Of a stretch of DNA of 64,000 nt, positions 4,863-60,685 are shown one piece after another (position 1 is the stretch's first letter; every line of letters begins with the position of its first letter). Location: positions 1,655,001 through 1,719,000 of the forward strand of contig NZ_JBBOOE010000001.1 of assembly GCF_038002965.1 (NCBI RefSeq), written 5' to 3'. The stretch comes from Robertmurraya sp. FSL R5-0851 (GTDB lineage Bacteria; Bacillota; Bacilli; Bacillales; Cytobacillaceae). The notes below the pieces were generated by a model. It was given only the letters and a program-made list of their open reading frames with translations, was not told the DNA's origin and searched no databases. A program made the position numbers and the translations under genes.

Positions 4863-6101
4863 ATGAATGCTGAAATCATTGCAGTGGGCTCAGAGTTGTT
4901 GCTTGGCCAAATTGTTAATACAAACGCTCGTTTCATTTCCAAACAACTAGCTAGTATTGGAACCAATGTGTTTTATCATACGGTAGTTGGTGATAATCCG
5001 ACCCGTTTGCAACAAGCGATTGCTGTGGCAGAAGGTCGTTCAAACTTAATTATCTTTACAGGTGGATTAGGTCCGACAAAGGATGATTTGACAAAGGAAA
5101 CAATTGCCAAACACCTCGGTAAGGAGCTTGAATTTGATCAAGCTGCTCTTGACTCTATCTCTCAGTACTTTATTCGTACAAACCGTGTCATGACAGAGAA
5201 TAATAAGAAGCAAGCATTGGTTCTTGCTGATTCTACTGTTTTGCCAAATGATAACGGAATGGCTCCTGGCATGCTTTTAACTACTAATACTCACCGTTAT
5301 ATGCTTTTACCAGGGCCACCGAAGGAAATGGAACCCATGTTTTTACATTATGCACTCCCACTATTACAAAAAGAACCAGACGTCTCTGAGACGATTGTTT
5401 CACGAGTGTTGCGTTTCTTTGGGATAGGAGAGGCTGCATTAGAAACAAAGATTGAGGATTTAATTGATGCGCAATCGAATCCTACGATTGCGCCCCTTGC
5501 TAGCGACGGGGAAGTGACGTTGAGGCTTACTGCTAAACACCAACAAACCGACGTTGCAAATGAACTCATTAATGAAACGGAAGAGAAGATACGTACACGT
5601 GTTGGTGAGTTCTTCTACGGGTATAATGAAACCTCGTTAATGAATGAGTTATTTACCCTGCTACAAAAGAACGATTTAACCATTGCTTGTGCAGAGAGCT
5701 TAACTGGAGGGATGTTTCAGCAGGAGCTGACAGCTATTCCAGGTTCTAGTGCGGTAGTAAAAGGCGGGGTCGTTTGCTATACGAATGACGTTAAGGAAAA
5801 GGTCCTTGGTGTTAAAAAGGAAACTCTGGAAAAATATGGAGCAGTAAGTGAAGAGTGTGCAAGGGAATTAGCTGAAAATGTGGCTTCATTACTTAACGCT
5901 GATATTGGAATTAGCTTTACTGGTGTAGCAGGGCCTGGTGCTGTTGAGGAGAAACCGGTAGGAACGGTGTATATTGGAATTTCAAAAAAAGGATCTCCAG
6001 TAAAAGTCGAAAAATTTCTTTTTGCTGGTACAAGAGAAGGCAATCGAGTGAGAAGTGTGAAGTACGGCTGTTTCTCACTAATCAATAGCTTGAAAGATTA
6101 A
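4863..6101 (+). CDS. cinA: competence/damage-inducible protein CinA
   Basis: This 412-residue protein has an N-terminal MoaB/MocF-like domain ([32 protein letters not shown]) and a C-terminal CinA domain ([23 protein letters not shown]). The C-terminal domain is known as an NMN deamidase in other bacteria. The gene precedes recA, as in many Firmicutes where it is a competence gene. ATG 4863 is preferred over TTG 4854 because AGGTGA ends right before the TTG but lies 9 bases before the ATG. The pgsA-cinA gap is 25 bases, which suggests cotranscription. Confidence 0.94.
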
Positions 6102-41136: not shown

Positions 41137-41272
41137 AAGTTGAAATACCAATACTTCACCCATTCATTAAACTACAATACCAAAACACTGCAAGTATCTT
41201 CCTTATTTTCACAAGATTTGGTAAACTATTCTAGTTACAGGAATTGTTTTTTAGGGTTGGGGGTTGTGGGGA

Positions 41273-43021
41273 ATGAAAGTTTTTATTGATTTGATGTGGT
41301 TTTTCAAGCAGGAGAAAAAAGCATATATTACTGGGGTTCTTCTGTTGTTAATTGTTGCATTTTTGCAGCTTGTTCCTCCAAAAGTGATTGGGCTTGTAGT
41401 CGATCATATTGAGCAAGGGTCCTTAACGATGAAGATATTAGGGACATATTTGCTCCTACTTGTAGGGGCTGCTCTAATGATGTACATACTTAGGTATTAT
41501 TGGAGAATCATGATTTTTGGTTCAGCAGTTAAGCTCTCCATGCAATTACGAAATCGATTGTTTCATCATTTTACTTCAATGTCACAATCCTTTTACCAAA
41601 GAAGAAGAACGGGAGACTTGATGGCACATGCGACCAATGATATTCAAGCGATACAGCAGACGGCAGGTGTAGGGGTACTCACCTTTGTCGATTCCCTTTC
41701 TACAGGTGGCTTTGTCATTCTTGCCATGGCTTTTACCATCAGCTGGAAGCTTACGTTAATTAGCTTGATTCCGATGCCGTTTATGGCGATTTTAACCAGT
41801 TGGTACGGAACGTTACTACACAGGCGTTTTCATCTCGCGCAGGAGGCCTTTTCATCGTTAAACGATAAAACACAGGAAAGTATCACAGGAATAAAAGTGA
41901 TAAAAACCTTTGGTCAGGAAAAAGAAGATATAGAAGATTTTCGAAAGCAATCCAATGATGTAGTAGATAAAAATATTTCCGTTGCACGGGTGGACTCCTT
42001 GTTTGATCCGACGATTTCTATTATTGTAGGAATTTCATTTTTTCTTTCTCTTACATTTGGTGCTAGATATGTAATAAATGGTGAGTTAACGATTGGACAG
42101 TTGGTTTCTTTTACAACCTATTTAGGCTTATTAATTTGGCCTATGCTTGCCTTCGGGTGGTTGTTTAATATCGTTGAAAGAGGTAGAGCTTCTTATGATC
42201 GCGTTATCTCACTATTAAATGAAAAAGCGGATATTGTCGATGAAGAAGCAGCGTTAAATGTGACTCCAAGCGGAGATATTCAATATGAGATTCAGCAATT
42301 TACTTATCCGAACGAAGCAGAACCCATCCTACATGATATTCATTTTGAGTTGAAAAGGGGACAAACACTTGGAATTGTAGGGAAAACAGGTGCCGGGAAG
42401 ACGACATTATTAAAGCTATTGATCAGGGAATATGATGTTACCGATGGTCAAATCATATTCGGTGGTCAGCACATTACACGATATAAAATCGACAAATTAA
42501 GAGAGGCAGTCGGCTATGTTCCACAGGACCATTTCCTATTTTCTGCTACGATCGGTGAAAATATCTCTTTCGCCAAGTCTCTATGTGAAAAAGAAGAGAT
42601 CCACGAGGCAGCGAAAATAGCTAATATTCATGATGATATAACTCAGTTTACTGATGGGTATGATACGGTCGTCGGAGAACGAGGCGTTTCGTTATCTGGT
42701 GGGCAAAAACAGCGTATTTCCATTGCTCGTGCTCTATTATTAAATCCGGAAGTGCTCATTCTAGATGATTCTCTTTCAGCGGTCGATGCTAAAACAGAAG
42801 AGGCGATTTTAACATCACTTAAAGAAAACCGAGAGGGGAAAACAACAATCATTACCTCTCACCGACTAAGTGCCATTCAGCATGCTGATCTTATTATAGT
42901 CATTGATAATGGACAGATCGCGCAATCGGGTACACATGATACGTTAATGGATCAAGAGGGATGGTACAAGGAAATGTACCTAAGGCAACAGCTGGAAGAT
43001 CTTGTGGAGCATGGAGGATAA
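41273..43021 (+). CDS. heterodimeric ABC exporter subunit, degenerate-site half
   Basis: This 582-residue half-transporter has six membrane helices (about 1-310) followed by an ATPase. Walker A is GIVGKTGAGKTTLLK, the signature is VSLSGGQKQRISIARALL and Walker B is VLILDDSLSAVDA. The Walker B catalytic Glu is replaced by Asp (LDDS), the pattern of the inactive site in heterodimeric exporters such as BmrCD or LmrCD. It pairs with the next gene. ATG 41273 is preferred over TTG 41264 from spacing to the G-run. Multidrug export is likely, but the substrate is unknown. Confidence 0.9.
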   Translation: MKVFIDLMWFFKQEKKAYITGVLLLLIVAFLQLVPPKVIGLVVDHIEQGSLTMKILGTYLLLLVGAALMMYILRYYWRIMIFGSAVKLSMQLRNRLFHHFTSMSQSFYQRRRTGDLMAHATNDIQAIQQTAGVGVLTFVDSLSTGGFVILAMAFTISWKLTLISLIPMPFMAILTSWYGTLLHRRFHLAQEAFSSLNDKTQESITGIKVIKTFGQEKEDIEDFRKQSNDVVDKNISVARVDSLFDPTISIIVGISFFLSLTFGARYVINGELTIGQLVSFTTYLGLLIWPMLAFGWLFNIVERGRASYDRVISLLNEKADIVDEEAALNVTPSGDIQYEIQQFTYPNEAEPILHDIHFELKRGQTLGIVGKTGAGKTTLLKLLIREYDVTDGQIIFGGQHITRYKIDKLREAVGYVPQDHFLFSATIGENISFAKSLCEKEEIHEAAKIANIHDDITQFTDGYDTVVGERGVSLSGGQKQRISIARALLLNPEVLILDDSLSAVDAKTEEAILTSLKENREGKTTIITSHRLSAIQHADLIIVIDNGQIAQSGTHDTLMDQEGWYKEMYLRQQLEDLVEHGG

Positions 43022-43024
43022 ATG

Positions 43025-44815
43025 ATGGAAAATCAGCAATTATCAGAAGGGAAACAACAGTGGAAAGTATTAGTTCGGCTCCTAGCCTATGCGAAGCCTC
43101 ACTCGAAAACGATAGGGTTGGCTTTTTGTCTCCTAATTCTTACAACAGTTGGTGATATACTTGGACCCATTTTAGTCAAAGTATTTATAGATGATTACTT
43201 AAAGCCTAGAAATCTTTCGTTTGAACCGTTATTCATGCTAGGTGCCGCGTATTTAGGTATTCAAATTTTAAACGTCATTATCTCCTATTTTCAGCTCTTA
43301 AAATTCCAAGAAATTGCCTTGAAAATTATTCAAGAGATTCGTATTGATGTCTTCTCAAAGGTTCAATCACTTGGATTGAAATTTTTTGACAAAACACCTG
43401 CTGGAAGCATTGTATCAAGAGTGACGAATGATACCGAAGCGATTAAAGATATGTTTGTGACGGTGTTAGTAACGTTTATCCAAAGCGGGTTCCTCATTAC
43501 GGGTATTTTTATCGCAATGTTTATTTTGGATGTTAAACTAGCATTGTTTTGTTTAGTCATTCTACCAGTGATTTTTTTTATTATGAACTTGTACCGAAAA
43601 CTAAGCTCGAAATTTTACCATGATATGAGGGAGCGACTAAGCCAGCTGAATGCAAAGCTTAGTGAATCGATTCAAGGGATGGGAATCATTCAAGTATTTC
43701 GTCAGGAAAAAAGAATGCGTGAAGAATTTGGAGTGACCAATGAGAAGCATTATACTGCCGGTATGAGGAATATAAAAGTAGATGGTTTGCTTTTGCGTCC
43801 TGCGATTGACCTGGTTTATGTGGGAGCCTTGATTATCGTTCTTAGCTATTTTGGTGTTTCGTCATTTGAAAGTCCTATCCAAATCGGAGTGTTGTATGCG
43901 TTTGTTAACTATCTAGATCGATTCTTTGAGCCGGTGAACAATATGATGATGCGCTTATCTTTATACCAACAAGCAATTGTCGCAGCTTCTAGGGTATTCA
44001 ATGTTCTTGATGAACAGGAGGTATCACCTTCACAAAAAGAAACAGCCAATAGGATTCAAGAAGGCGAAATAGAATTTCGTGATGTCAGTTTTTCATATGA
44101 TGGGAAAAGAGATGTATTAAAAAATATTTCCTTCACTGCAAAACCAGGTGAAACAGTCGCCCTGGTTGGTCACACCGGAAGTGGCAAGAGCTCGATTATT
44201 AATTTAATGATGAGATTTTATGAATTTGAAAGAGGAGAAATTTTAGTGGATGGGCATTCCATTAAAGAATATCCCGAAAAAGAACTTCGGACAAAGATGG
44301 GTCTGGTTCTTCAAGATCCTTTCTTGTTTTTTGGAACCGTCGCAGACAATATTCGTTTGCATAATGAGAAGATGAGCATGGAAGAGGTAGAAGCAGCTGC
44401 GAAGTTTGTTCAAGCACATCCATTTATTGAGAAGCTTGAGGGAGGATACGAGCATCAAATGGTGGAGAGAGGGTCTACGCTATCAAGTGGGCAACGGCAA
44501 CTGATTGCCTTTGCTCGGACGGTAGCAGCTAGTCCAAAAATATTAATTTTGGACGAAGCAACCGCCAATATTGATACAGAGACTGAAGAAGCGATTCAAG
44601 AGGCGCTTTCACGTATGCGAAAAGGTCGAACAACGATTGCCATTGCCCACCGATTGTCGACCATTCAAGATGCCGAACTGATCTTAGTGTTGCATCAAGG
44701 GGAAATCGTCGAGAGGGGTAGTCATCAGGAACTGCTATCACTAAGAGGTTTGTACTATAAGATGTATCTTCTCCAAAATAATTTAGCCGATAGAATAGAG
44801 GATGTTGTCAGCTAA
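43025..44815 (+). CDS. heterodimeric ABC exporter subunit, active-site half
   Basis: This 596-residue half-transporter has six membrane helices and an ATPase with Walker A VALVGHTGSGKSSIIN, signature STLSSGQRQLIAFARTVA and Walker B ILILDEATANIDT, where the catalytic Glu is intact. The signature is LSSGQ rather than LSGGQ. It starts 3 bases after the partner (GGAGG overlaps the partner's end; ATG 43025 gives 7-base spacing, ATG 43022 only 4). The pair resembles YheI/YheH or YfiB/YfiC of B. subtilis; I cannot choose. Confidence 0.9.
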   Translation: MENQQLSEGKQQWKVLVRLLAYAKPHSKTIGLAFCLLILTTVGDILGPILVKVFIDDYLKPRNLSFEPLFMLGAAYLGIQILNVIISYFQLLKFQEIALKIIQEIRIDVFSKVQSLGLKFFDKTPAGSIVSRVTNDTEAIKDMFVTVLVTFIQSGFLITGIFIAMFILDVKLALFCLVILPVIFFIMNLYRKLSSKFYHDMRERLSQLNAKLSESIQGMGIIQVFRQEKRMREEFGVTNEKHYTAGMRNIKVDGLLLRPAIDLVYVGALIIVLSYFGVSSFESPIQIGVLYAFVNYLDRFFEPVNNMMMRLSLYQQAIVAASRVFNVLDEQEVSPSQKETANRIQEGEIEFRDVSFSYDGKRDVLKNISFTAKPGETVALVGHTGSGKSSIINLMMRFYEFERGEILVDGHSIKEYPEKELRTKMGLVLQDPFLFFGTVADNIRLHNEKMSMEEVEAAAKFVQAHPFIEKLEGGYEHQMVERGSTLSSGQRQLIAFARTVAASPKILILDEATANIDTETEEAIQEALSRMRKGRTTIAIAHRLSTIQDAELILVLHQGEIVERGSHQELLSLRGLYYKMYLLQNNLADRIEDVVS

Positions 44816-44819
44816 AAAA

Positions 44820-44857
44820 TAAACAGCTTGAGTTGCTTTCGGCTCAAGCTGTTTTTA
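44820..44857. terminator. terminator between the ABC exporter and the Spo0E-like gene
   Basis: AAACAGCTTGAG pairs with CTCAAGCTGTTT around a 10-base loop, followed by T5. The stop codon of the reverse-strand gene overlaps its end. Confidence 0.88.
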
Positions 44858-45025
44858 ATAGGTGGGAACCTTTTTTAAAAAGATACGGTTATATTCATTT
44901 AAAAGATTGTCCAATTCCTGACTGTAATGAAGGGCAGTAGAAGAATTCAGTCCACTGATCATAGCGATCTCGATTAGCTCCGCTCGTTTCTTTTCAATGA
45001 GTGCTAAAAATTCCTGTTTTGACAA
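44855..45025 (-). CDS. ynzD: Spo0E-like aspartyl-phosphate phosphatase
   Basis: A 56-residue protein on the reverse strand, below the usual gene-calling size, begins MSKQEFLALIEKKRAELIEI. It holds the Spo0E-family signature SQELDNLLNEYN. Members dephosphorylate Spo0A~P and delay sporulation. B. subtilis has a Spo0E-like gene (ynzD) at this place between yneF and ccdA. The start is TTG, with GGAAGGGA about 10 bases upstream, so the exact start is less sure than the identity. Confidence 0.85.
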   Translation of the reverse strand: MSKQEFLALIEKKRAELIEIAMISGLNSSTALHYSQELDNLLNEYNRIFLKKVPTY

Positions 45026-45302
45026 TTCTGTTTAGTCCCTTCCAAATAATATCCAAAATCTTTCGTGAAACTATATACATAGTATACCCAAGAAATAGGA
45101 GAATTTCAAAAGAAAAAATCTAGAAATAGACAATTTTGTTTGGTGATTAACATTTTTTCAGGGTTCTTACATACAGTTATATGGAGTCTGGAGCTTGCCC
45201 GATTTTTGTTGCTGTCACAGAATGTTCAAATATTAATTATTATCTTTTCTATTTATCTTTTGATAAAATTAATAAGAATGATTTTTTTAGGAGTGGTTAC
45301 AT

Positions 45303-46010
45303 TTGACCGATGTAAACGTATTAATTGCACTTGGAGCCGGCTTTTTGAGCTTTATTTCTCCTTGCTGTCTTCCTTTATATCCTGCGTTCCTCTCGTATAT
45401 TACTGGTATGTCAGTAGGAGAACTGAAGACGGATAATGCCATGCTACAAAGACGCAGCTTATTACATACCTTGTTTTTCTTAGTTGGATTTTCCATTATC
45501 TTTATTGCGATCGGCTTTGGAAGCTCCTTTATTGGTGAAATTTTTGCTGGCTATCAGGATCTCATTCGTCAATTAGGCGCCATTGTGATCGTCTTTTTTG
45601 GTTTCGTGGTCGTTGGTATTCTGAAACCGGATTCGTTGATGAGGGAAAAAAGATATGAGTTTAAACACCGTCCGTCAGGATATTTTGGTTCGGTTTTAAT
45701 AGGAATTGCTTTTGCGGCTGGCTGGACACCTTGTACGGGTCCTATCTTAATGTCAGTAATTGCCCTAGCTGCGACAAATCCTGGTTCAGGTATGGTATAC
45801 ATGGTTGCTTATATACTTGGTTTTGCCATTCCATTTTTTATCCTATCTTTCTTTATAGGGAAATTACAATGGATCAAGCGCCACAATGTTTTAATAATGA
45901 AAATTGGTGGCTATATTATGATAGTAATGGGAATTGTCCTATTTTTTGATTGGATGACAAAGATTATTATCATTTTTACCAATATGTTTGGTGGTTTTAC
46001 AGGCTTTTGA
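45303..46010 (+). CDS. ccdA: thiol-disulfide transport protein CcdA
   Basis: CcdA passes electrons from cytoplasmic thioredoxin across the membrane for cytochrome c maturation and spore synthesis. The protein is 235 residues with six hydrophobic helices. The two redox Cys sites are in [14 protein letters not shown] and [13 protein letters not shown]. The start is TTG with TAGGAG 6-8 bases upstream. The order ccdA-yneI-yneJ is as in B. subtilis. Confidence 0.95.
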
Positions 46011-46176
46011 TTTAGCTATCTTTCTGTTATAATATAGGAAAATAGTCTTAAGTCATTTTGATACAACTGTCAAAAATAGTCGAAATATTCTTTTTGTCAT
46101 TGAATGTAATTTTCGTTATATTTAAATATGTATTTTAGAGATATGATTCTGTTGTAGTGTTGAGGGGGTACCAGCG

Positions 46177-46536
46177 ATGGCAAAAATATTAATCGTAGAT
46201 GATGCAAAATTTATGAGAATGACCCTTTCAGACATTCTAATTCGAAATAACCACGAGATCGTGGGAGAGGCTGAAAATGGCAGAGAAGCAATCGCTCTTT
46301 TTCATGAGCGACAACCAGATTTGGTTACAATGGACATTACAATGCCTGAGATGAGTGGCTTAGAGGCCATGAAAGAAATTAGACAGAACTACCCACAAGC
46401 AAAAGTGATCATGTGTTCTGCAATGGGCCAACAGCGTATGGTCGTAGAAGCGATTGAAGCCGGAGCTAAAGACTTCATTGTAAAACCCTTTGATGAAGGA
46501 AGGGTAATTGAAGCCGTGAATCGTGTTTTAACCTAA
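46177..46536 (+). CDS. yneI: CheY-like response regulator YneI (CcdB)
   Basis: This 119-residue single receiver domain has the acidic pocket in ILIVDDAKFM, the phosphorylated Asp in PDLVTMDITMPEMSG and the conserved Lys in IVKPFDEG. It has no output domain. In B. subtilis it lies between ccdA and ccdC but is not needed for cytochrome c. AGGGGG precedes ATG. The partner kinase is unknown. Confidence 0.95.
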   Translation: MAKILIVDDAKFMRMTLSDILIRNNHEIVGEAENGREAIALFHERQPDLVTMDITMPEMSGLEAMKEIRQNYPQAKVIMCSAMGQQRMVVEAIEAGAKDFIVKPFDEGRVIEAVNRVLT

Positions 46537-46545
46537 ATATAATAG

Positions 46546-46583
46546 ATGCTGACTAGTCGTTGATAGTCAGCATTCTTTATTTT
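46546..46583 (+). terminator. terminator after yneI
   Basis: A perfect 10-bp stem, ATGCTGACTA/TAGTCAGCAT, with an 8-base loop is followed by a T-rich tract. Confidence 0.85.
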
Positions 46584-46660
46584 AAAAAATATTATAATAT
46601 TGGAAGTGTATCCGCTATAATTATAGGGAAAATATATTTCTTAGATTGGAATGAAAGTAT

Positions 46661-47137
46661 ATGAACAACATGGTTGTTATTGCTTCTTCAATAGGGGCCA
46701 TTGGAATGGCGATTTTGGCCATGTTCGTCCGTATGAAAGCGGCGAAAAAACCTGCCACTGCAAGGAAAATTATACTACCACCTGTGTTTATGAGTACAGG
46801 TGCACTAATGTTTGTTGTTCCGATGTTTCGAGTGACATATTTAGAATTGTTTGAAGCGATGGCTGTTGGACTAGTCTTTTCTATTTTGTTAATAAAAACT
46901 TCAAAGTTTGAGATACGTGAGAATGAAATATACCTAAAACGTTCACGTGCTTTTGTGTTTATTTTGTTCGGACTCCTCGTGTTACGAATCATTCTAAAGT
47001 TACTATTAAGCTCTTCAATTGACTATGGGGAACTAAGCGGAATGTTCTTTATATTAGCTTTTTCCATGATCCTTCCGTGGAGAATTGCTATGTATCTTCA
47101 ATTTAGAAGATTCCAGGAAAAACTGACAAAATTATGA
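46661..47137 (+). CDS. ccdC: cytochrome c biogenesis-associated membrane protein CcdC (YneJ)
   Basis: This 158-residue protein has about five hydrophobic segments (MVVIASSIGAIGMAILAMFV, IILPPVFMSTGALMFVVPMF, LFEAMAVGLVFSILLI, AFVFILFGLLVLRIILKLLL, GMFFILAFSMILPWRIAMYL). It matches the CcdC family (DUF1453 type). It is dispensable for cytochrome c in B. subtilis and its role is unclear. The ribosome binding site is weak (TTGGAATG). The position after yneI supports the name. Confidence 0.9.
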   Translation: MNNMVVIASSIGAIGMAILAMFVRMKAAKKPATARKIILPPVFMSTGALMFVVPMFRVTYLELFEAMAVGLVFSILLIKTSKFEIRENEIYLKRSRAFVFILFGLLVLRIILKLLLSSSIDYGELSGMFFILAFSMILPWRIAMYLQFRRFQEKLTKL

Positions 47138-47144
47138 GGTTTTG

Positions 47145-47176
47145 AACGTCAAATCATAATGGATTTGGCGTTTTTT
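47145..47176 (+). terminator. terminator after ccdC
   Basis: AACGTCAAATC pairs with GATTTGGCGTT (one T-G) around a 6-base loop, followed by T4. Confidence 0.85.
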
Positions 47177-47177
47177 A

Positions 47178-47213
47178 AAAAATAAAAGACCGCTTCATGT
47201 AAAGCAGTCTTTT
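47178..47213 (-). terminator. terminator after yneK
   Basis: On the reverse strand AAAAGACTGCTT pairs with AAGCGGTCTTTT (one T-G), followed by ATTTTTT. Confidence 0.85.
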
Positions 47214-47637
47214 AAAATAAGTGTTGATAGGGTGACATGTCTATTTTGTTTTCAGCAAGCTTCTTTTTCAAAAATTTATGGTCCCGTTTTGGAGTGGCTA
47301 AAATATATCCTCGAATCACGAGCTCTTCGGTAATCGACGGACGTTTTTCCTCTACGGCTAGCTCACCAATTTTTCCAGCGATTTTTTGTCGAGCCACATC
47401 GCGAAAAAGTTCTGGTACAGGGCTCACAAGATCTTCAAGAAGATCCTTTTCCGGCTGTTGCCAAAGATCACGAGTCTCATTCACAAAGTGCTCTTCCCAA
47501 TCGAGGACAGACTTGCCGTCTTCAAGAGGCATTCTTTTTAAAAACTTACGAAACATAAAAAATCCACCGATTGCAAACGAACCGACTAGTATTAACACCC
47601 AAAAAATAATAAATATTGAAAACCATCCACTTAACAT
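47212..47637 (-). CDS. yneK: DUF2621 membrane protein YneK
   Basis: This 141-residue protein has one N-terminal membrane helix (about 5-28, WFSIFIIFWVLILVGSFAIG) and a cytoplasmic domain (RMPLEDGKSVLDWEEHFVNE, LVSPVPELFRDVARQKI, RDHKFLKKKLAENKIDMSPY). It belongs to the Bacillus DUF2621 family, function unknown. AGGTGAG precedes ATG. It converges on ccdC and is the last gene in the window with conserved B. subtilis order. Confidence 0.92.
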   Translation of the reverse strand: MLSGWFSIFIIFWVLILVGSFAIGGFFMFRKFLKRMPLEDGKSVLDWEEHFVNETRDLWQQPEKDLLEDLVSPVPELFRDVARQKIAGKIGELAVEEKRPSITEELVIRGYILATPKRDHKFLKKKLAENKIDMSPYQHLF

Positions 47638-47744
47638 AAACTCACCTACAAAACATGATTAATACTATTATTATAGCCAAACTTCTAGCAGGGAGACAAG
47701 CAAACGTTTTAAAAGCGATTTAAAAATGGGAGAAGGAGAACAGT

Positions 47745-48551
47745 ATGACGAAACTATATATATTCGAAGGAGTCCCTGGTTCAGGAAAAACGACCAGTGC
47801 CAAATGGTTAGCAAATAGATTAGGAGATAATGCAAAACTATATTTGGAGGGTAATCGAGAACATCCGGCTGATCATGAGTCTGTCGCTTGTCTAACTGAG
47901 GAGCAATTGAATGTGGTTGAACAAGAGTGTCCTTCGGTACGGGGGATGGCAACTCGAAAAGGCGAGAGATATTACATTTCGTACGCGAGTTTGTATGAAA
48001 AAGATCCAGAGTTATTTGAGAGATTAAAAGCGTTCGATGTATATGAGCTTCCAGTAGAAGATTACGTAGAGGTTGCTTTGGAAAAGTGGAAGGAATTTGT
48101 TGAAAAAGCAAAATCAGGAGCACATGAGTACATACTAGAATGCTGTTATTTACAAAATCCTTTTACGTTTTTACTAGCAAAACATAATTGTTCAAAAGAG
48201 ATTATTTTCAATTTCTTAAATCAGATAACCAATGTAATTACGGAGCTCGATCCAGTAATCGTTTATTTTGAACAGGATAATGTAGCAGAAAACCTAGAGA
48301 AAATTCGGCAGGAACGTCCTGTGGAATGGTTTGATTTTATAACCTGGTATTACACAGGTCAGGAGTATGGGAAAGAAAGGGGACTGTCAGGGGTAAGTGG
48401 AGTTCTGCATTTCTTGGAAGAGAGGAAGCAGTCTGAGAACGAGTTTCTCCGAGGTGTACCGATAAGATCATTGATTATAAACAACACTAATGCAGATTGG
48501 GATAATATCCATAATCGACTTGCTTTTGAATTAGCACTAACAGAAAGGTAG
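47745..48551 (+). CDS. P-loop NTPase, kinase-like, unknown substrate
   Basis: This 268-residue soluble protein begins MTKLYIFEGVPGSGKTTSAK, a Walker A in the style of small-molecule or nucleoside kinases. A later YILECCYLQNPF may carry the acidic residue that activates the acceptor. No nucleic-acid-binding domain is seen. GAAGGAGAA precedes ATG. It lies 118 bases upstream of selC. Similar stand-alone P-loop proteins occur widely in Bacillaceae, so linkage to selC may be chance. Function is unknown. Confidence 0.75.
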   Translation: MTKLYIFEGVPGSGKTTSAKWLANRLGDNAKLYLEGNREHPADHESVACLTEEQLNVVEQECPSVRGMATRKGERYYISYASLYEKDPELFERLKAFDVYELPVEDYVEVALEKWKEFVEKAKSGAHEYILECCYLQNPFTFLLAKHNCSKEIIFNFLNQITNVITELDPVIVYFEQDNVAENLEKIRQERPVEWFDFITWYYTGQEYGKERGLSGVSGVLHFLEERKQSENEFLRGVPIRSLIINNTNADWDNIHNRLAFELALTER

Positions 48552-48612
48552 TTTGCACGTGGTATATTAGGATAAACTACTTGAAAAATAGAGTTAAGTG
48601 CTCCATAATAGA

Positions 48613-48669: not shown

Positions 48670-48766
48670 GGGGCTGATTGGGGTACTGGTGTCCTCCACG
48701 GTCTTCAAAACCGCTTGTGTCCTGCGTGCCAGGATAGCTGGGTTCGATTCCCAGGCAGTCCCGCCA
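48670..48766 (+). tRNA. selC: selenocysteine tRNA, anticodon UCA
   Basis: This 97-base tRNA with encoded CCA has acceptor GGGGCTG pairing CAGTCCC (one G-U). The anticodon loop is CTTCAAA with anticodon TCA at 48705-48707. A long variable arm has a 7-bp stem (TGTCCTG/CAGGATA), and the T arm CTGGG-TTCGATT-CCCAG is regular. The UCA anticodon with a long extra arm and total length of 97 are diagnostic for tRNA-Sec rather than tRNA-Ser or a suppressor. The eighth acceptor pair would be A-G, a small departure from the bacterial 8+5 pattern. SelA, SelB and SelD genes are not in the window. Confidence 0.93.
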
Positions 48767-50761: not shown

Positions 50762-51835
50762 GTGATTACTATAGATATCATTGAAACACGGGTGAGAGGT
50801 TTTATTGGAGATATTCAACACCCTAAACAAAAAAAGAAGATTAATATTAACGATTTAGAGTTTCAGTTGCGTAAGCTGATGGAGGATTATTTTGAGATGG
50901 ATGGTTATTCGTTGTTTTATCATTCCATTGAAACATTGCAAGCAGAAGGACAATTGATTCCTATTCAAAATAATCAATATAACGGAAGAACACCGGCGCT
51001 CCCCTTATATTACTGGGTGAATATCAAAGTTCAGTCTACCAAGTGGGATCGTTTGGAGATGATGAAGTTAAGTGATCAGTTTGATTTTTCTTATTATGAA
51101 CGTCATCCTGAATGGCAAACGGTTGAGGAATGGAAACGAATCCATAATGTTTATACTTTTCTCCAAAGCAATCAGGAACGGGAAATCGTTTCATTTGAAG
51201 AAAGAAGCTTGGAACTGTTTGGTTATGAAAAATTTTTATTAGATGGTGACAGTTTCCCCGAAGGCAAAGGCTTTTTAGCTAGAATTGGAGTGTCAGAAGA
51301 GCAACTGAAAATGGTGAGCTACGGGGAGCCTTTTGTATTTTGGATGAAACAAGGAAAAGAAATAAAAGATATTCAGAGGGTTCTAATTGTTGAGAATCTA
51401 TCTTTCTTTCATACTTCCATTAAATTATTGGAGGACAACGTACTGGATTATGAACCTGAACTAATTATTTATGGGGAAGGGACAAAAATTGAACGTAGTT
51501 TTTCCTTTTTCTTTCGAATGTTTCCGCCCAAATCCTATCTGTTCTATTACGCAGGAGATCTAGATGCCTCAGGATATGGAATCTTGGTTCGGCTTATTGA
51601 AAAGTATCCTGAATGCTGTATTCAGCCTGCCTTAAAGATCTATCGGAAAATGCTTGAATGTACAGAACAAAGAAATGACCAGAAATCTGGTCAGACGCAA
51701 AATAGCAAATACCGCGATTCCTTTTTCCAATGGTTCACTGAAGAGGAACAAGCATTATTGCTAGAATTGTGGCAGGAAAATAAGCGGATCCCGCAAGAAG
51801 TGTTAACAATCGAAACATGGAGGAGATGGATGTGA
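50762..51835 (+). CDS. jetD: Wadjet subunit JetD, Toprim-domain nuclease
   Basis: JetD is the DNA-cutting subunit of the Wadjet (MksBEFG/Ept) anti-plasmid complex. The protein is 357 residues. The C-terminal Toprim-like region shows Glu211 in VLIVENLSFFHT and the DxD pair Asp266/Asp268 in YYAGDLDASGYGIL, as in DUF2220-type JetD proteins. The N-terminal half fits the arm domain. The start is uncertain: GTG 50762 overlaps the only good binding site (TAGGTGA), which would rather serve ATT/ATA codons a few bases on. The stop overlaps the jetA start (GTGA). Confidence 0.85.
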   Translation: MITIDIIETRVRGFIGDIQHPKQKKKININDLEFQLRKLMEDYFEMDGYSLFYHSIETLQAEGQLIPIQNNQYNGRTPALPLYYWVNIKVQSTKWDRLEMMKLSDQFDFSYYERHPEWQTVEEWKRIHNVYTFLQSNQEREIVSFEERSLELFGYEKFLLDGDSFPEGKGFLARIGVSEEQLKMVSYGEPFVFWMKQGKEIKDIQRVLIVENLSFFHTSIKLLEDNVLDYEPELIIYGEGTKIERSFSFFFRMFPPKSYLFYYAGDLDASGYGILVRLIEKYPECCIQPALKIYRKMLECTEQRNDQKSGQTQNSKYRDSFFQWFTEEEQALLLELWQENKRIPQEVLTIETWRRWM

Positions 51836-53340
51836 ACGAATCATGGGAAGGCTTCGCCCAGCGAATGCAGCGATTAAATCCTCTATTTGAGCTTGGGAGA
51901 GGAATGGAAGTAGGGGAATTGAAACCTCATATCCAAACCATCCTCATGCAAGTGCTCCTCACCATTTTTTATAGAGAACTAAATGATGATGATCATCGAA
52001 GCAAATCAGATATCAAGTATATGGTCGAAGATTCGATTAAACAAATGAGACTTTTAGCAGATGACAAACACATTGAACGAATCACGAGTGGTCTTTTATA
52101 TCAGGGGAAAGAGGAATATAGTAGACCATTTGAAGCCTTATATTACGACGAAATAAGGCAATCTTGGGAAACGCAAACTTTCCGATACGTCACAATGGAT
52201 GAATTATATACGAATCTAGAAATAGGCGGCTCAATTGTCTATAAATTAACAGATGTCGCTCAGGAAATGATATTTATGAGCCGAGAAATGGCTGAGGAAT
52301 TCTCGATAACGATTGAACAGCTCTATAGTATGCAGTTGATAAAAAACGGTAATTTTAGAAAAGCTACTCGAAACCTCGATCACCTCATTTCACGAGTAAA
52401 CCGCTTAATGGCAAATGAATTCACCTTCCAAAAGGAAATGATCAACAATCCCAAAATTTTATTGGTTGAAGAGGAAAGGCAAAGAGCAGACAATCGTGTG
52501 GAAATAGAAAAGCAATTTGAAGAGGAAAAAAATCACTTTCGTACGATTACTAGTATGATAGAAAAAACGAAACGTAGAAATGAAGCAGATGATTATATTC
52601 AGAGGGAATTGATTCTTCTTCAAGAAAAAATAGGTCATACAAGGCAATTGCATGATCGTTTTGCAAAGCTCGTTATTCAAAATATATCGTATGAACTAAA
52701 ATTAAAAGCAGAAAATCCGTCATTGTTTTGGGAAAAGAGCATGGTTTCCTTTCGCGAGCATGTGTATGAAAATTGGTTATTTAAAGAAGGCGTTCAGGAT
52801 TTTAAAGCCATTGAAAACGTAATCTCTTCGTTATTTTCACCGAGAAATGAGTTTATTTTGCCTCTTGATTGGATTTGGGGAGAACAAGAATTTGATGAAC
52901 AACAATTATCGGATGTTGAAGTGATAGAAGAAGCAGAAGAAAACGAAACTCGTCCACGGGTGACGAACTGGGATTCGGTAATAAGTGCGTGGAGTTATGT
53001 GTTTCAATTTTTACAAACAAATAGAGAGTTTTCATTATCCGATCTTGCAACCATGCCATTAGAAGTGCAGGATTTGTGGTTCGAGGAATCTGAAACGATT
53101 GATTTATGGATGATGTTTGATAAAAAGCCGTTAAAGGTTCAAGTGCTGCACCGGAAGGAAGAAACACTGAGCGATGAAAGAGAAATTCTTCTCCATAAAT
53201 TAATGAAAGAATATCCACAATTTCAAGTGTTTGAAGGATCAAAAATCTTTACCATGTTTGATCCTGAAGCCGACCCTATCGTTTGGTACCAAACAAAAAT
53301 CACCCCTTTTAAATTATGTATAGAGGAGGAGAAACGATGA
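51832..53340 (+). CDS. jetA: Wadjet subunit JetA (MksF/kleisin-like)
   Basis: This 502-residue protein is the probable kleisin-like subunit that bridges the SMC-like JetC dimer. Helical segments are predicted around 200-300 (EEERQRADNRVEIEKQFEEE). The C-terminal part has winged-helix-like stretches (PRVTNWDSVISAWSYVFQFL). It appears to be the DUF5716-type JetA rather than the DUF3375 type; this is from memory. GTG 51832 is chosen because GGAGG lies 8 bases upstream; the ATG at 51817 is part of that site. Its stop overlaps jetB. Confidence 0.8.
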   Translation: MNESWEGFAQRMQRLNPLFELGRGMEVGELKPHIQTILMQVLLTIFYRELNDDDHRSKSDIKYMVEDSIKQMRLLADDKHIERITSGLLYQGKEEYSRPFEALYYDEIRQSWETQTFRYVTMDELYTNLEIGGSIVYKLTDVAQEMIFMSREMAEEFSITIEQLYSMQLIKNGNFRKATRNLDHLISRVNRLMANEFTFQKEMINNPKILLVEEERQRADNRVEIEKQFEEEKNHFRTITSMIEKTKRRNEADDYIQRELILLQEKIGHTRQLHDRFAKLVIQNISYELKLKAENPSLFWEKSMVSFREHVYENWLFKEGVQDFKAIENVISSLFSPRNEFILPLDWIWGEQEFDEQQLSDVEVIEEAEENETRPRVTNWDSVISAWSYVFQFLQTNREFSLSDLATMPLEVQDLWFEESETIDLWMMFDKKPLKVQVLHRKEETLSDEREILLHKLMKEYPQFQVFEGSKIFTMFDPEADPIVWYQTKITPFKLCIEEEKR

Positions 53341-54083
53341 ATGCTGAAACGATCAAAAAAGCGTCAGCGGTCTATTTTACGTTATTAAAAGATAAAGTCA
53401 TCGAAGAAAATAGTGAACACTTCCAAACCTTCTTTGACCCGGAAGTCAGACAGACGGTTTTATTATTAGCAGACGAATCAGGTACGTATATCATTGAATC
53501 GCCCAAACGCATCCATTTAGTCGTTCAGCCAACTGGCTCGGTGTTTGCAACGAATTTCACTCATATGAAAGAGAAGCATCGCCAGATCGAAACGAAAAAA
53601 CATTTTCACCTGATCAGCGTGATCATCATGTCATTCTTAGCATCGATAGACCGCAACCAGGCGGCAAAAATTCGAACGAAACGGGAAGGCATTAGCTACT
53701 ATGCCTTAGAACGGTATGTTAATGACTTGATGATGAATTGGGAGAAGATTCTTAAAGTGAAACCTAATTTCGGAGAAGAAGAACGACTGGATATGAAGGA
53801 AATGGTGACTACATGGAAATACATGGAGGTCGACACCGAGGATTATGGATTGAAAAAAGGCAATAGAAGAACGAGAATCGGATTAATTGCCAGCGCTATG
53901 CGGTTATTAGAGACAGAAGGGTTAATCGTCATTCTGGATCGGGATGATATTCCAAAGGTGATTCCAAAACAGGAGCTATTTGAGAGAATTGAATACTTGT
54001 ATCATGATTATGACCGTTACGAAGTTTTAAAAAAATTAATGACATCAGAGGAGAATGAGCATGCCGAAAATCCATCGAATTAG
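53337..54083 (+). CDS. jetB: Wadjet subunit JetB (MksE/KITE-like)
   Basis: This 248-residue protein sits in the position and size class of the KITE subunit that binds JetA and the JetC heads. The C-terminal part has a winged-helix look (RRTRIGLIASAMRLLETEGL, IVILDRDDIPKVIPKQELFE). It resembles the DUF6063 group from memory; DUF4194 is the other Wadjet JetB type. ATG 53337 overlaps the jetA stop (ATGA) with GGAGGAG upstream, so translation is coupled. It runs 23 bases into jetC. Confidence 0.8.
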   Translation: MNAETIKKASAVYFTLLKDKVIEENSEHFQTFFDPEVRQTVLLLADESGTYIIESPKRIHLVVQPTGSVFATNFTHMKEKHRQIETKKHFHLISVIIMSFLASIDRNQAAKIRTKREGISYYALERYVNDLMMNWEKILKVKPNFGEEERLDMKEMVTTWKYMEVDTEDYGLKKGNRRTRIGLIASAMRLLETEGLIVILDRDDIPKVIPKQELFERIEYLYHDYDRYEVLKKLMTSEENEHAENPSN

Positions 54084-57000
54084 AATTGTTGGCCTGAAAT
54101 ATGATGGCATGCAAAAGCAATATAAAGATACGACCTTTAACTTCCATAATGAAGAAACGTCAACTAATGGTCTCATCGCTATGATGAACGGGGGCGGAAA
54201 AGGGGTGTTTCTGCAAACGGTCTTCCAAATTCTCAAACCTGGAACATCTTGGGGAAAACAAAACAATCGTTATTATCAGCAATTTTTCTTTAATAATAAA
54301 GAGCAGTTTATTCCTTATACCTTTCATGTTCTCATTCAATGGGAACTAGACGGTGCCGATCGCAGACATCTAATCACTGGAGGAATGTTCTCTGCTGAAC
54401 AGAGAATTTCGATGAGTGAAGAAGGTGGAAATGAAAGTAAATCTTTAGAGCAGGAAGCAAAGATTCTCCCTAATATTACATTTTACACGAGAGAATTTGA
54501 ACGGAAAGAAGAGGCCGCCGTTGAGCATATTCCACTTTATGAAAATGACGAGGTTGCTGACAGTGAAAGTTTGAAAGATTATCTGAAATGGAATGGATAT
54601 GACGTTTATAAAGATATAAAGAAGCACTATCGCATCCTTGATACATACGGAATTAACCGTAAAGATTGGGACATTATGAAGGATATCAACAAGGATGAAG
54701 GTGGAGTAGGAAAATATTTTGAGGGAGCTGAAGATGATCATTCCCTTTTCCAAAAACGAATTATTCCTACCGTTAGTCAAGTCTTGCATCGAACGGAACA
54801 CCAAAAGAATGATCTGGTCGAGATTTTTAAGAGTCAGGCTAGTATTGCCAAGGATCTGCCTGTTCTTTTAAAAAGAGAGCAAGCCCATAAAGAATTTTTA
54901 GAAGATATTGTTCCCTTTGAAGAGCATTTAGCTAAAGGGGTCGAACATAAAGAAATTGTTCAGGAAAGTATCAAGGTCGGAAGACAACTTCTTGGTGCAT
55001 TAGAACTTTTGAAGACAACAGAAACGGAAATGTTACTTACTTTAGAAAAAGACCTAGAGAAGTTAACACTCAAGCAAGAAGACCTACGCTATCAAAAAGA
55101 TAATTTGGAGTATGCAAAAGCTCATCGAGAGGTAATGGCGTGGGATAAGAAATTAGTAGAAGAAAGAAAAAAACACACCTCCTCTCAAGAAATAGTGAAA
55201 GAGAAACTGGAACGAAAAGAACAGCTCGTCTTTCAGTTATTATTGAAAGAGTGGAGTGAGAACGAACAAACGATTCGTTCCCTGTCACAGCAGATTGCCA
55301 TCTTAGAGCAAAATAGTGGCTTAGAGCAAGTGAATCAAAGAATGGATGAAATCAAAAAAGAAGTAGCACAACAATGGGAGCATTCTTATCTAACCATACA
55401 AGAAGGTGTAAGGCAGTACTTGGGCTATCAGAAGTTCTTAAAGAAAAAAGAAACGGAGCTCTCGCAACAGGATAAGCAGAAGACAAAAGAAATCGCGCAA
55501 ATTAGTACGGAAATGGATTTTCTTTATACACAAATACATGCTTTTGAATCAAAAGATGAGGCACTCATCAAAGAATTTGGTGACCGCTTAACGTATGACT
55601 TAAAGGGCTTGATCGAGTCTTTCTCAAAACAAATTGAGGACAAAAACACGAGCTTAGAAGAGATACAAGCAAAAGATAAAGAATCTAGTGAAAAGCAAAA
55701 TTCACTTGCCTCTTCCCATGGTACGCTCGTCCAATCCATTCAGTTTTCAGAAGAAAAGTGCACGGAATTAAAGGTAGCAAATAACGAGCAAGAGCAAAGA
55801 GAATCAAAACTATTAGATAAGCTTCATGGTTTATTAGATGATGTCACAGCACCGTTTACTCACTCTCTTTTATCAAAGTATGCGTTACAGATAGAAGAAC
55901 TTCTGGCGGGTAACAGACAACAAGGGGAACAAATTAAAAAAGAACTTTGGGAAACGCAGCTTGATCATTCCTTAAATGATGAGGGGTTTTGGATTGCTAA
56001 TAAAGATGTAAAAGAATTAAAAGAATGGATCGACGAGAAGACAGGCATTGATGTGTTTTATGGTACACAGTTTCTTCAATCATTACGTGCAGAAGATATG
56101 GCGAATTATTGCTTAACATATCCGCTCCTTCCGTACGGTTTAGTCGTAAGTCAGCATCAGTGGCAAAAAATTAATCAGCAGGTTCTATCAGGAAGAATGT
56201 TTAAAAGTCCGGTTCCGATTTTCATGCGTGAGGAAATGAACAGCGACAATCACCCATCTTCCTTTGTCATCATTAACGGAACCGAAAAAGAGTTGTTATC
56301 GGATAAGAATCAATTCACCCACTGGAAAATTAGTATGGCTAAACAAATAGAAGAAAAGAAAGATACACTGATTGAGATTGAAAAAACAGAAAACTCCTTA
56401 CGTCGTATGTTAAAAGAAATCGATCGGTTTTTATCAGGCGAATTATCTAGTGATATCGTAAAAAAACTTAATCAGGAACAGAACGCTCTTCTTACTAAGA
56501 AAGCTAATTTGCAGGAAATCATCATTCAACAAGAAAAGGAAAAGGAATTTCAGCTTCAGTTAAAAGAGCAATTGGAACACACAAAGCGAAAAATAGAAAA
56601 GCTTACAAAAGATGTGGAAACATTAGAGGAGTTTGAAAAAGAAAAAACACTTCATCAAGAAAATAAACGGGTGAAAGAAGAAAAAGAGAAACTAAAGGAA
56701 GCCTTGGTCCTACAGCAACAAGAATTAGGAAAAGAGCACCAACAGATTGTGGAGCTGCAAACCAAGTGGAATCATACGTATGTAGAATGGAAGCTGACAA
56801 CCGAACAGAATATAAAGGAGATTGCGTTCTTTATGGAAGGAGCAGCTTTTCCACCTGATGAAAAAGTCGACCAAAGTGAAGAAGTTCCACGCCTATCCAC
56901 TCATTTATTAGAAGAGATAAATGGGAGAATGGAAGAGTTGAAACAGCTTCAAAAATCAAAGGAAGAACAAGCTAGAGAGTTGCTCGTTATTCAAGCAAAG

Positions 57001-58524
57001 AAAGAAACCGAACAAAAGCAGCAAACAAAATTAGAGAAAAAACTCAAAGCAGCAAATGAGGAGTGGGAAAAGGCCTCTGCACCTGACGAACCTATTAGTA
57101 TCTTAGAAAATATGCTGCAAACGGCACAGAAGGAAGCAAAGGCTGCGGAAAAGGAAGAACGTGAACAAGGAACGGCTGTAACGGTGGCTGAAACATCGTT
57201 GCAGCATGCGACTGAACAGCGTGAAAAGACTGGAAAAAAGATAGCTAAGCATGAAAGACAGCCTGAAGAATGGGCAGATCTTGACTTAGAAGTAAAGGAA
57301 GTAGAAATAAAAGACCAAACGAAGATAACGAAGGATGAAGTAAAGAAGACGGAAAAACGTCAGAAAGAAACAGAAACCAATATTGCTAGTTATGAAGGGG
57401 ACTTGTTAACTCTATCCGTGATCTTAAAGGAAGATGCAGCAGTCTTTACCGAACATGAGCTAGAGTTAATTAAGACTCAAGGGAAAGCATGTATCTTATC
57501 CTGGTGCGAAAAACATCAAGAGATTTTAGAAGAAGGACAAGAAAAGCATGCAAAAATTGATCAATCCTTGCGTAACTTAAAGCTTGCAATTGAAGGAAAA
57601 GATTGGGAGATTCGTTTTAAGAATGAAGTGTTAACGACATTAGACCATATGGATACAAGGCATTACTCGCATATTCAAAGCATTGTGAAAAATATGAAGC
57701 GATTCTCACAAAGTGGTTTAGAACAATTAGAACGAGACAAAGAAAGGGCAGAAAAGGCTCAAAACTTCTGGGCTAGCCGTGCTAGTATGAAAGTGATGAG
57801 TATTTCAGAAGCCATTCGTTCCATGATTGTGAAAATGAAGTTGAAAAATGAACGAGGATCTTTCCCTCTCGTCCAATTAAAAGAAGACATCCTGCCTAAA
57901 AAGGCGGAAGATATTGAACCGTTATTAAAGCAGCACTTTGTTTCAGCGATAAATAAAATTACAAAGCAATTTGATATGATTGATGATCATAATCGATTAT
58001 TAGACCAGGAAATTAAACAGCTTATTAGTGACGAGCAAATTTTGTTTGTATCACTGAGAAATCGATATCCTGAGCTACTTGTCTATAATATGAGAACGGA
58101 TAATGCCTTTATGTATGGGAAACCGCAAAGAGAGCATTACTCCACTTGGCAGACCATTAATCAAGGTTCTAAGACAAAATCGGATGGCAGTGGTGGACAA
58201 AAGTTATCAGCTCGCATGGTGATGATGATGATGTTATTATCAGTTAAAAGCGAAACCGATCAAAGCTGGGTTCCTTTAGTCTGCGATAATCCGTTCGGAC
58301 AAGCTGCATCCACACATGTCCTTGACCCAATCTTTGCAGTTGCCGATAAGTTAAAGTTCCAATTTATCGTTGTCACTCCGCCCGAGCTCGTGAAAACAGA
58401 AATCAGCCAACGATTTGACTCCTACTATAAACTGGACTTCATTCGTGAAAAAGGAAAAGAAATAGTCTCCGACACCATCGTTCCAGCCTATCGGATATTT
58501 CAAGGAGAAGAAGTCCTTCAATAG
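54061..58524 (+). CDS. jetC: Wadjet subunit JetC (MksB), SMC-like ATPase
   Basis: This 1487-residue motor of the anti-plasmid complex forms dimers that extrude DNA loops and measure circle size. The N-terminal head holds a P-loop-like NGGGKG at 43-48. Two very long coiled coils (about 290-560 and 750-1240) flank a hinge-like region near 575-720. The C-terminal head has the ABC signature SGGQKLSAR (from about 1377) and Walker B in VPLVCDNPFGQA. The base after the P-loop lysine codes Gly, not Ser/Thr. ATG 54061 fits AGAGGAG spacing better than ATG 54055. Confidence 0.87.
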   Translation: MPKIHRIRIVGLKYDGMQKQYKDTTFNFHNEETSTNGLIAMMNGGGKGVFLQTVFQILKPGTSWGKQNNRYYQQFFFNNKEQFIPYTFHVLIQWELDGADRRHLITGGMFSAEQRISMSEEGGNESKSLEQEAKILPNITFYTREFERKEEAAVEHIPLYENDEVADSESLKDYLKWNGYDVYKDIKKHYRILDTYGINRKDWDIMKDINKDEGGVGKYFEGAEDDHSLFQKRIIPTVSQVLHRTEHQKNDLVEIFKSQASIAKDLPVLLKREQAHKEFLEDIVPFEEHLAKGVEHKEIVQESIKVGRQLLGALELLKTTETEMLLTLEKDLEKLTLKQEDLRYQKDNLEYAKAHREVMAWDKKLVEERKKHTSSQEIVKEKLERKEQLVFQLLLKEWSENEQTIRSLSQQIAILEQNSGLEQVNQRMDEIKKEVAQQWEHSYLTIQEGVRQYLGYQKFLKKKETELSQQDKQKTKEIAQISTEMDFLYTQIHAFESKDEALIKEFGDRLTYDLKGLIESFSKQIEDKNTSLEEIQAKDKESSEKQNSLASSHGTLVQSIQFSEEKCTELKVANNEQEQRESKLLDKLHGLLDDVTAPFTHSLLSKYALQIEELLAGNRQQGEQIKKELWETQLDHSLNDEGFWIANKDVKELKEWIDEKTGIDVFYGTQFLQSLRAEDMANYCLTYPLLPYGLVVSQHQWQKINQQVLSGRMFKSPVPIFMREEMNSDNHPSSFVIINGTEKELLSDKNQFTHWKISMAKQIEEKKDTLIEIEKTENSLRRMLKEIDRFLSGELSSDIVKKLNQEQNALLTKKANLQEIIIQQEKEKEFQLQLKEQLEHTKRKIEKLTKDVETLEEFEKEKTLHQENKRVKEEKEKLKEALVLQQQELGKEHQQIVELQTKWNHTYVEWKLTTEQNIKEIAFFMEGAAFPPDEKVDQSEEVPRLSTHLLEEINGRMEELKQLQKSKEEQARELLVIQAKKETEQKQQTKLEKKLKAANEEWEKASAPDEPISILENMLQTAQKEAKAAEKEEREQGTAVTVAETSLQHATEQREKTGKKIAKHERQPEEWADLDLEVKEVEIKDQTKITKDEVKKTEKRQKETETNIASYEGDLLTLSVILKEDAAVFTEHELELIKTQGKACILSWCEKHQEILEEGQEKHAKIDQSLRNLKLAIEGKDWEIRFKNEVLTTLDHMDTRHYSHIQSIVKNMKRFSQSGLEQLERDKERAEKAQNFWASRASMKVMSISEAIRSMIVKMKLKNERGSFPLVQLKEDILPKKAEDIEPLLKQHFVSAINKITKQFDMIDDHNRLLDQEIKQLISDEQILFVSLRNRYPELLVYNMRTDNAFMYGKPQREHYSTWQTINQGSKTKSDGSGGQKLSARMVMMMMLLSVKSETDQSWVPLVCDNPFGQAASTHVLDPIFAVADKLKFQFIVVTPPELVKTEISQRFDSYYKLDFIREKGKEIVSDTIVPAYRIFQGEEVLQ

Positions 58525-60343: not shown

Positions 60344-60383
60344 CGGGTAAGAAGAGTGTGCAAAAATATTATTATGCAAACAT

Positions 60384-60453
60384 TCTCTTCTGTCCTTTTG
60401 CCTGAGATTGTGAATCCTTCGGCGCCGTATGCATACGGTCTCTCCAGAAGCTG
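60384..60453 (-). promoter_or_regulatory. glycine riboswitch, single aptamer
   Basis: On the reverse strand CTTCTGGAGAGACC is followed by the hairpin GTATGCATAC, then GGCGCCGAAGGA, AATCTCAGGCAAAAGGACAG and AAGAG. These are the conserved blocks of the glycine aptamer. P1 is CTTCT/AGAAG. Only one aptamer is present. The 3' strand of P1 (AGAAGAG) can also pair with CTCTTCT at 60350-60356 before the terminator, a plausible switching helix. Whether glycine turns the operon on or off is not settled by this pairing. Confidence 0.92.
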
Positions 60454-60685
60454 CTCCGGTAATAGTTTGATCCACTACCATCATGGCGGCTGTATTGAAT
60501 TAAGTTAGATATTATCAATAAATAATAATTCAGTCAATTAAAATTTGAGAAAAATAAAAAAAGACTATATCAATTTTGACTTTTCTGAAAATTGTTATTG
60601 AAAAATGGTAAAAAAGAACATATAATCAAAAATGAGCATAAACGATCAAAAACATCCACGTTTATGAATGAATGCAAATGATTTA

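Follow-up and report, generated by a model that had tools for sequence, protein, structure and literature searches.

The window, which is the whole stretch of 64,000 nucleotides analysed here, corresponds to C1:1655001-1719000 in the 5.32-Mb, two-contig genome of Robertmurraya sp. FSL R5-0851. It carries a selenocysteine tRNA gene (tRNA-Sec, selC; starting at C1:1703670), which lies between a conserved series of genes on the 5' side and a region of variable content on the 3' side (Table 1).

Table 1. Features of the window (plain positions) and of the selenocysteine system elsewhere in the host genome (C1 positions).
Feature	Position	Strand	Basis or content
tRNA-Sec (selC) gene, anticodon UCA, encoded CCA	48670..48766	+	ARAGORN, Rfam RF01852; identical in 3/4 same-genus genomes compared
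Candidate promoter-like site, TTGAAA-17-CATAAT	48581..48609	+	Consensus scan, 10/12 consensus; ~60 bases 5' of tRNA-Sec
Conserved 5' neighbourhood	41264..48551	.	Two presumed ABC transporter genes, CcdA, response regulator, CcdC, DUF2621 (-), kinase-like gene
Wadjet type III, jetD-jetA-jetB-jetC, complete	50762..58524	+	PADLOC models
selA	C1:1969418-1970797	-	Profile match 559.6 bits, cut-off 267.9
selB	C1:2028068-2029924	-	Profile match 368 bits, cut-off 242.25
selD	C1:1971982-1972911	+	Profile match 405.4 bits, cut-off 125; one TGA inside
SelW-like gene	Divergent, upstream of selD	-	77 residues; UGA at codon 13, CMMU near N terminus

The tRNA-Sec gene and its surroundings

ARAGORN returned a single tRNA gene in the window, tRNA-Sec with anticodon TCA, and the covariance model RF01852 matched positions 48670-48762 with all 91 model positions covered and a score of 58.9 bits, compared with a gathering score of 47. 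The associated E-value of 2.2e-9 for the window makes chance a poor explanation of the match. Both results agree with the sequence-only reading, which had proposed tRNAscan-SE or ARAGORN as a check and had described a 97-base tRNA with a UCA anticodon, a long variable arm and an encoded CCA. The RNA has a G preceding the CCA, a variable arm of seven pairs in the minimum free energy (MFE) fold, a T stem of five pairs and an acceptor helix of seven standard pairs with an A.G mismatch at the eighth position; the acceptor and T stack of bacterial tRNA-Sec comprises 13 bp, in the 8/5 form. Since the fold is only mildly better than that of shuffled sequences (z -1.18, with 24 of 200 shuffles folding at least as well), the evidence for the gene comes from the covariance model and from conservation: three same-genus genomes (G187, G188 and G190) have an identical 97-mer, and a fourth (G189) shows a few differences. 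The existence of a tRNA-Sec gene at exactly the position in Table 1 is confirmed. A promoter scan of a 601-base stretch found three sites, where 1.9 were expected in shuffles.

The order of genes 5' of tRNA-Sec is kept in all four same-genus genomes as far as the compared stretches reach (blastp synteny), with the first ABC gene being within reach in two of the four. The names CcdA, CcdC and DUF2621 are taken from a Cytobacillus spongiae record, whereas the response regulator was assigned by PF00072; two further genes, which carry the ABC transporter label in the same record, are presumed to have that identity in the host also. An AAA_18 match in this neighbourhood falls below the Pfam cut-off. 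The 3' side varies between congeners. A type III Wadjet system stands there in the host and, in the corresponding position, in G190 (L198); G187 has a truncated tyrosine recombinase, and G188 carries yet other genes. The Wadjet operon is a neighbour within this variable region and lies outside the selenocysteine system.

Twenty further family genomes were picked from among the tRNA-Sec matches, two of them for their double copies, and open frames were scanned in 13. In at least 9 of the 20, the tRNA-Sec 3' end has a gene or gene fragment of the phage integrase family no more than about 0.7 kb away; stretches with tyrosine recombinase genes or fragments at this position are L197, L204, L205, L210, L215, L216, L217, L218, L221 and L222. 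In two of these (L204 and L205) the 97-base tRNA-Sec gene occurs twice, the copies being separated by 16 to 19 kb and differing at 0 and 1 positions, and L213 has a second, less similar copy. The recombinases and the double copies suggest that elements integrate at tRNA-Sec. In E. coli, selC is an integration hot spot. The two situations share tyrosine recombinase genes at the 3' end and downstream content that varies among relatives; they differ in that the present case concerns Bacillaceae, that two genomes have a double tRNA-Sec, and that neither an integrase beside tRNA-Sec nor a second copy of its 27-base 3' end (an att repeat, allowing up to 3 mismatches) was seen in the window. Phage records gave no match to the tRNA-Sec stretch. 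On plasmid pSHB26 of Peribacillus simplex (L203), a tRNA-Sec copy with acceptor mismatches occupies positions 5998-6090, scoring 49.1 bits and receiving no ARAGORN call, and is followed downstream by a phage-integrase-family piece, with an IS110 transposase gene between the two.

Recombinases flanking the 3' end in at least 9 of 20 genomes, together with a decayed copy beside integrase pieces on a Peribacillus plasmid, are what might be expected if the window gene were itself a relic, or the remnant of a mobile-element attachment site, left by a system that has decayed. This is considered very improbable, as the window tRNA-Sec is complete, identical in three congeners and above the Rfam cut-off, no second copy of its 3' end was found in the window, and the frames of selA, selB and the Sec-type selD and selW, described below, are open save for one TGA each in the latter two.

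A glycine riboswitch aptamer (51.6 bits) is also present in the window at 60380-60457 on the minus strand, upstream on that strand of a small gene, which we take to encode an ACT-domain protein, and a DUF711 gene.

Machinery, in-frame UGAs and downstream hairpins

The sequence-only reading had predicted that SelA, SelB, SelD and at least one selenoprotein would be encoded elsewhere, and had suggested a genome search for the three genes. All were found at the sequence level, with SelA, SelB and SelD above curated cut-offs and with the SelB-wing_2 and SelB-wing_3 winged-helix domains present in SelB; a B. subtilis control genome gave no SelA match. The selA and selB genes are open throughout, and selD and selW are open apart from a single TGA each. 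The system belongs to the known bacterial selenocysteine-decoding trait, which, as outlined in the relevant parts of PMC1794560 and PMC5029168, it resembles in its four components (SelA, SelB, SelC and SelD), in the in-frame UGA and in the hairpin directly downstream inside the coding sequence. It differs in that no Sec-type FdhA was found in the host genome and in that there is no selA-selB-selC operon, the genes being scattered across approximately 326 kb, from the tRNA to selA, selW and selD at 1969-1973 kb and selB at 2028 kb.

The selD gene starts with an ATG at L015:16961 and has its TGA at codon 18, in the motif KAG-U-GCKIG. A TGA occupies this codon in 81 of 81 loci, comprising the host and 80 named relatives labelled mostly as Robertmurraya, Neobacillus, Mesobacillus, Cytobacillus or Bacillus sp. 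When one strand of 30 further family selD loci was scanned, 14 had TGA and 4 had TGC, the other 12 not fitting the motif pattern. A comparison of in-frame TGA codons with open flanks across 113 loci (7855 sequence windows) yielded, among the 40 largest clusters listed, SelD (81 loci) and one more protein-like cluster (74 loci), that of the short SelW-like gene. By eye, the remaining clusters among these 40 appeared to be shadows, antisense or out of frame, of conserved genes or of the tRNA itself.

The SelW-like redox protein, which together with SelD makes two predicted selenoproteins in the host, matches the Rdx family (PF10262) with 74.3 bits, relative to a cut-off of 22.6, and has a CxxU motif; among its relatives of solved structure are chains named SelT/selW/selH selenoprotein domain and selenoprotein W-related. 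A stricter SelW motif was found in 74 of the 81 loci, with TGA in 73 and TGT in one (L119, Cytobacillus eiseniae). The selW and selD UGAs are divergent and separated by less than 450 bases in 70 of the 81 loci (approximately 270 in the host; median 233 over the 74) and by 1.9 to 3.5 kb in four more, while selW was not found in seven. SelW-like selenoproteins with CxxU are listed in Table 1 and section 7 of PMC13188914, and the host protein shares with them the N-terminal CxxU and the family match; it differs in that its gene is paired divergently with selD, an arrangement not found described in those parts of that paper. Three genomes (G019, G022 and G024; L163-L165) each have two TGA-bearing SelW-like copies, one of which lies about 58 kb (G019) or 21 kb (G022) from tRNA-Sec.

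UGA should not be taken for a stop in every case in these genomes, where selD and selW are liable to be truncated or overlooked. A mechanical list of open reading frames reduces selD to 315 residues starting after the TGA and, at a minimum of 70 residues, misses selW altogether; the earlier warning that genes of this kind would be wrongly called as truncated or as pseudogenes is to this extent a reasonable one.

A short hairpin lies downstream of each UGA, with seven pairs in selD and six in selW and a loop of three bases; the first loop base is G, and the second is T in no fewer than 90% of the 35 sequences aligned (36 distinct 17-mers were collected, and the divergent L172 was left out of the alignment). 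A two-hairpin structure for selD, examined over 45 sequences (44 distinct), showed 38 doubly changed cells compared with 7.3 in shuffles, a value reached by none of 500 shuffles, and four pairs covary, three of them inside the hairpin downstream of the UGA. The long-range fold after the selD UGA that is MFE-preferred in the host genome was rejected because it lacks an excess of covariation (3 cells compared with 1.9, reached by 134 of 500 shuffles). For the selW hairpin (29 sequences), 6 doubly changed cells were counted compared with 2.2 in shuffles (0 of 500), all from one pair; in controls, the count of covarying pairs was no higher than in shuffles (473 of 500) and the structure slid by -1 reached 5 cells. 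Covariation is therefore good for selD and weaker for selW, and an in-frame UGA followed by a conserved hairpin is seen clearly in the former and with this weaker covariation in the latter.

A 17-position model of the shared hairpin, whose training set includes the host's own selD and selW hairpins, was used to scan the host genome up to E 10, with 150 of 1583 first-look candidates being scored. The matches were selW (27.6 bits), selD (24.5 bits) and a third site at C1:931910 (18.4 bits), the last being a chance match antisense within a long open frame, presumably that of an efflux transporter. No third credible site was found among the scored candidates, a result that is informative but limited, since the selD and selW hits are members of the training set and 150 of the 1583 candidates were scored.

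Occurrence in the host family

tRNA-Sec was found above the RF01852 cut-off in 172 of 193 family genomes, SelD in 181 and Rdx/SelW in 160. The figure of 172 may include a few false tRNA-Sec genes because the model is imperfectly specific: 5 of 14 control genomes were also above its cut-off, compared with 1 of 14 for SelA, and the part of PMC5330540 concerned describes false positives with RF01852 and, in large numbers, with ARAGORN. Among the 150 SelD matches listed, 143 have one TGA and seven have none; all seven come from genomes without tRNA-Sec above the cut-off, and TGC was observed in four of them. The family genomes in which tRNA-Sec does not exceed the cut-off, 21 in all, comprise 11 without SelD, the seven with TGA-less SelD, G162 (85% complete), which has a TGA-bearing SelD, and G079 and G175, whose SelD matches fall outside those with a listed codon. 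SelD is missing from one genome (80% complete) that has tRNA-Sec. Among the 150 SelW matches listed, 149 have one TGA and one (G032) has none. tRNA-Sec and SelW occur together in 158 of the 193 genomes, with tRNA-Sec only in 14, SelW only in two (66% and 85% complete) and neither in 19 (Fisher p 1.7e-15, a value that overstates independence as the genomes are related). Across the family, tRNA-Sec tracks SelD and SelW.

A tRNA with this anticodon could instead act as a UGA suppressor or have some role outside selenocysteine insertion. Nothing specific was found in favour of this, and it is scarcely credible given the co-occurrence of tRNA-Sec with SelD and SelW over 193 genomes, the presence of SelA and SelB in the host and the absence of SelD, or of its TGA, from most genomes that lack tRNA-Sec.

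The general statement that most Bacillus species lack the selenocysteine system, from which the sequence-only reading had set out, does not hold for the host family, a large family of Bacillaceae in which the trait is common, not rare, and looks like the norm; the B. subtilis control gave no SelA match. Selenocysteine in Bacillales is not new, because PMC1794560, in the part concerned, already counts three selenoprotein families in Firmicutes/Bacillales, and the corresponding part of PMC5029168 has selenocysteine used by aerobes as well as anaerobes. Within the portions of the literature searched, supplements aside, neither near-universal selenocysteine in the host family nor the divergent selW-selD pair was found described.

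Function of the system and its possible clients

In selenocysteine decoding, SerRS charges tRNA-Sec with serine, SelA converts this to selenocysteine using selenophosphate from SelD, and SelB delivers the selenocysteyl-tRNA to a UGA with a SECIS hairpin downstream. The best explanation of the window gene, to which a probability of about 0.95 is assigned, is that it is the working tRNA-Sec of such a UGA-recoding system, which would read at least two UGAs. At the level of sequence, this reading draws on the tRNA, on SelA and the winged-helix-bearing SelB, and on the two in-frame UGAs, which are conserved and followed by hairpins. Charging, expression and selenium insertion at the UGAs are presumed: serine would be loaded onto the tRNA by SerRS and turned by SelA into selenocysteine, with SelD as the probable source of selenophosphate, and SelB would carry the charged tRNA to a UGA followed by a SECIS hairpin, such that codon 18 of selD and codon 13 of the SelW-like gene would both be read as selenocysteine. 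SelD and the SelW-like protein would then be the main clients that keep the system in the host.

Formate dehydrogenase and glycine reductase, which had been put forward as clients, were not borne out in the host genome. None of its five molybdopterin-family matches contains an in-frame TGA, and hence Sec-type FdhA was not found; all five have Cys at the aligned FdhA position, the alignment of L051 being loose. The GRDB, UGSC and CC/Se profiles found no match in the host genome, which is a weak negative as the control genomes were silent too. Within the window, 257 TGA-read-through frames were listed and 16 stretches inspected, none of which was selenoprotein-like.

It is possible, although we lean against it, that the selenoproteome extends beyond SelD and SelW to further selenoproteins that use SECIS elements of other shapes. 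The families searched were few, a fraction of the hairpin candidates was scored, and G187, of the same genus, has a Sec-type FdhA whose TGA lies in the motif RT-U-HAPS and precedes a predicted hairpin that differs in its loop. Set against this are the five molybdopterin matches free of in-frame stops, the unmatched profiles (a weak point, for the reason given), the lack of a third credible hairpin among those scored and the 16 inspected stretches of the window.

A bolder proposal is that SelD and the divergent SelW-like protein make up a selenium module that sustains itself and is sufficient to retain the machinery on its own in the host and in similar genomes, with the SelW-like protein handling selenium or delivering it to SelD. 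This is regarded as unlikely; were it true, the 21st amino acid could be kept without a metabolic selenoenzyme such as FdhA. The pair formed by selD and selW, for which close relatives show Sec, Cys and no-gene states, offers a handy system for studying what maintains the trait. Molybdopterin-family matches were compared in 26 hand-picked genomes with tRNA-Sec, namely the host, the 14 that lack SelW and 11 more. A match with one TGA occurs in at least 16 of the 26, the position of this TGA having been checked in G187 only. Eleven of the 14 without SelW show such a TGA-bearing match, and the other three, G008 (two matches) and G050 and G099 (three of four matches listed in each), are candidates for genomes in which SelD is the only selenoprotein.
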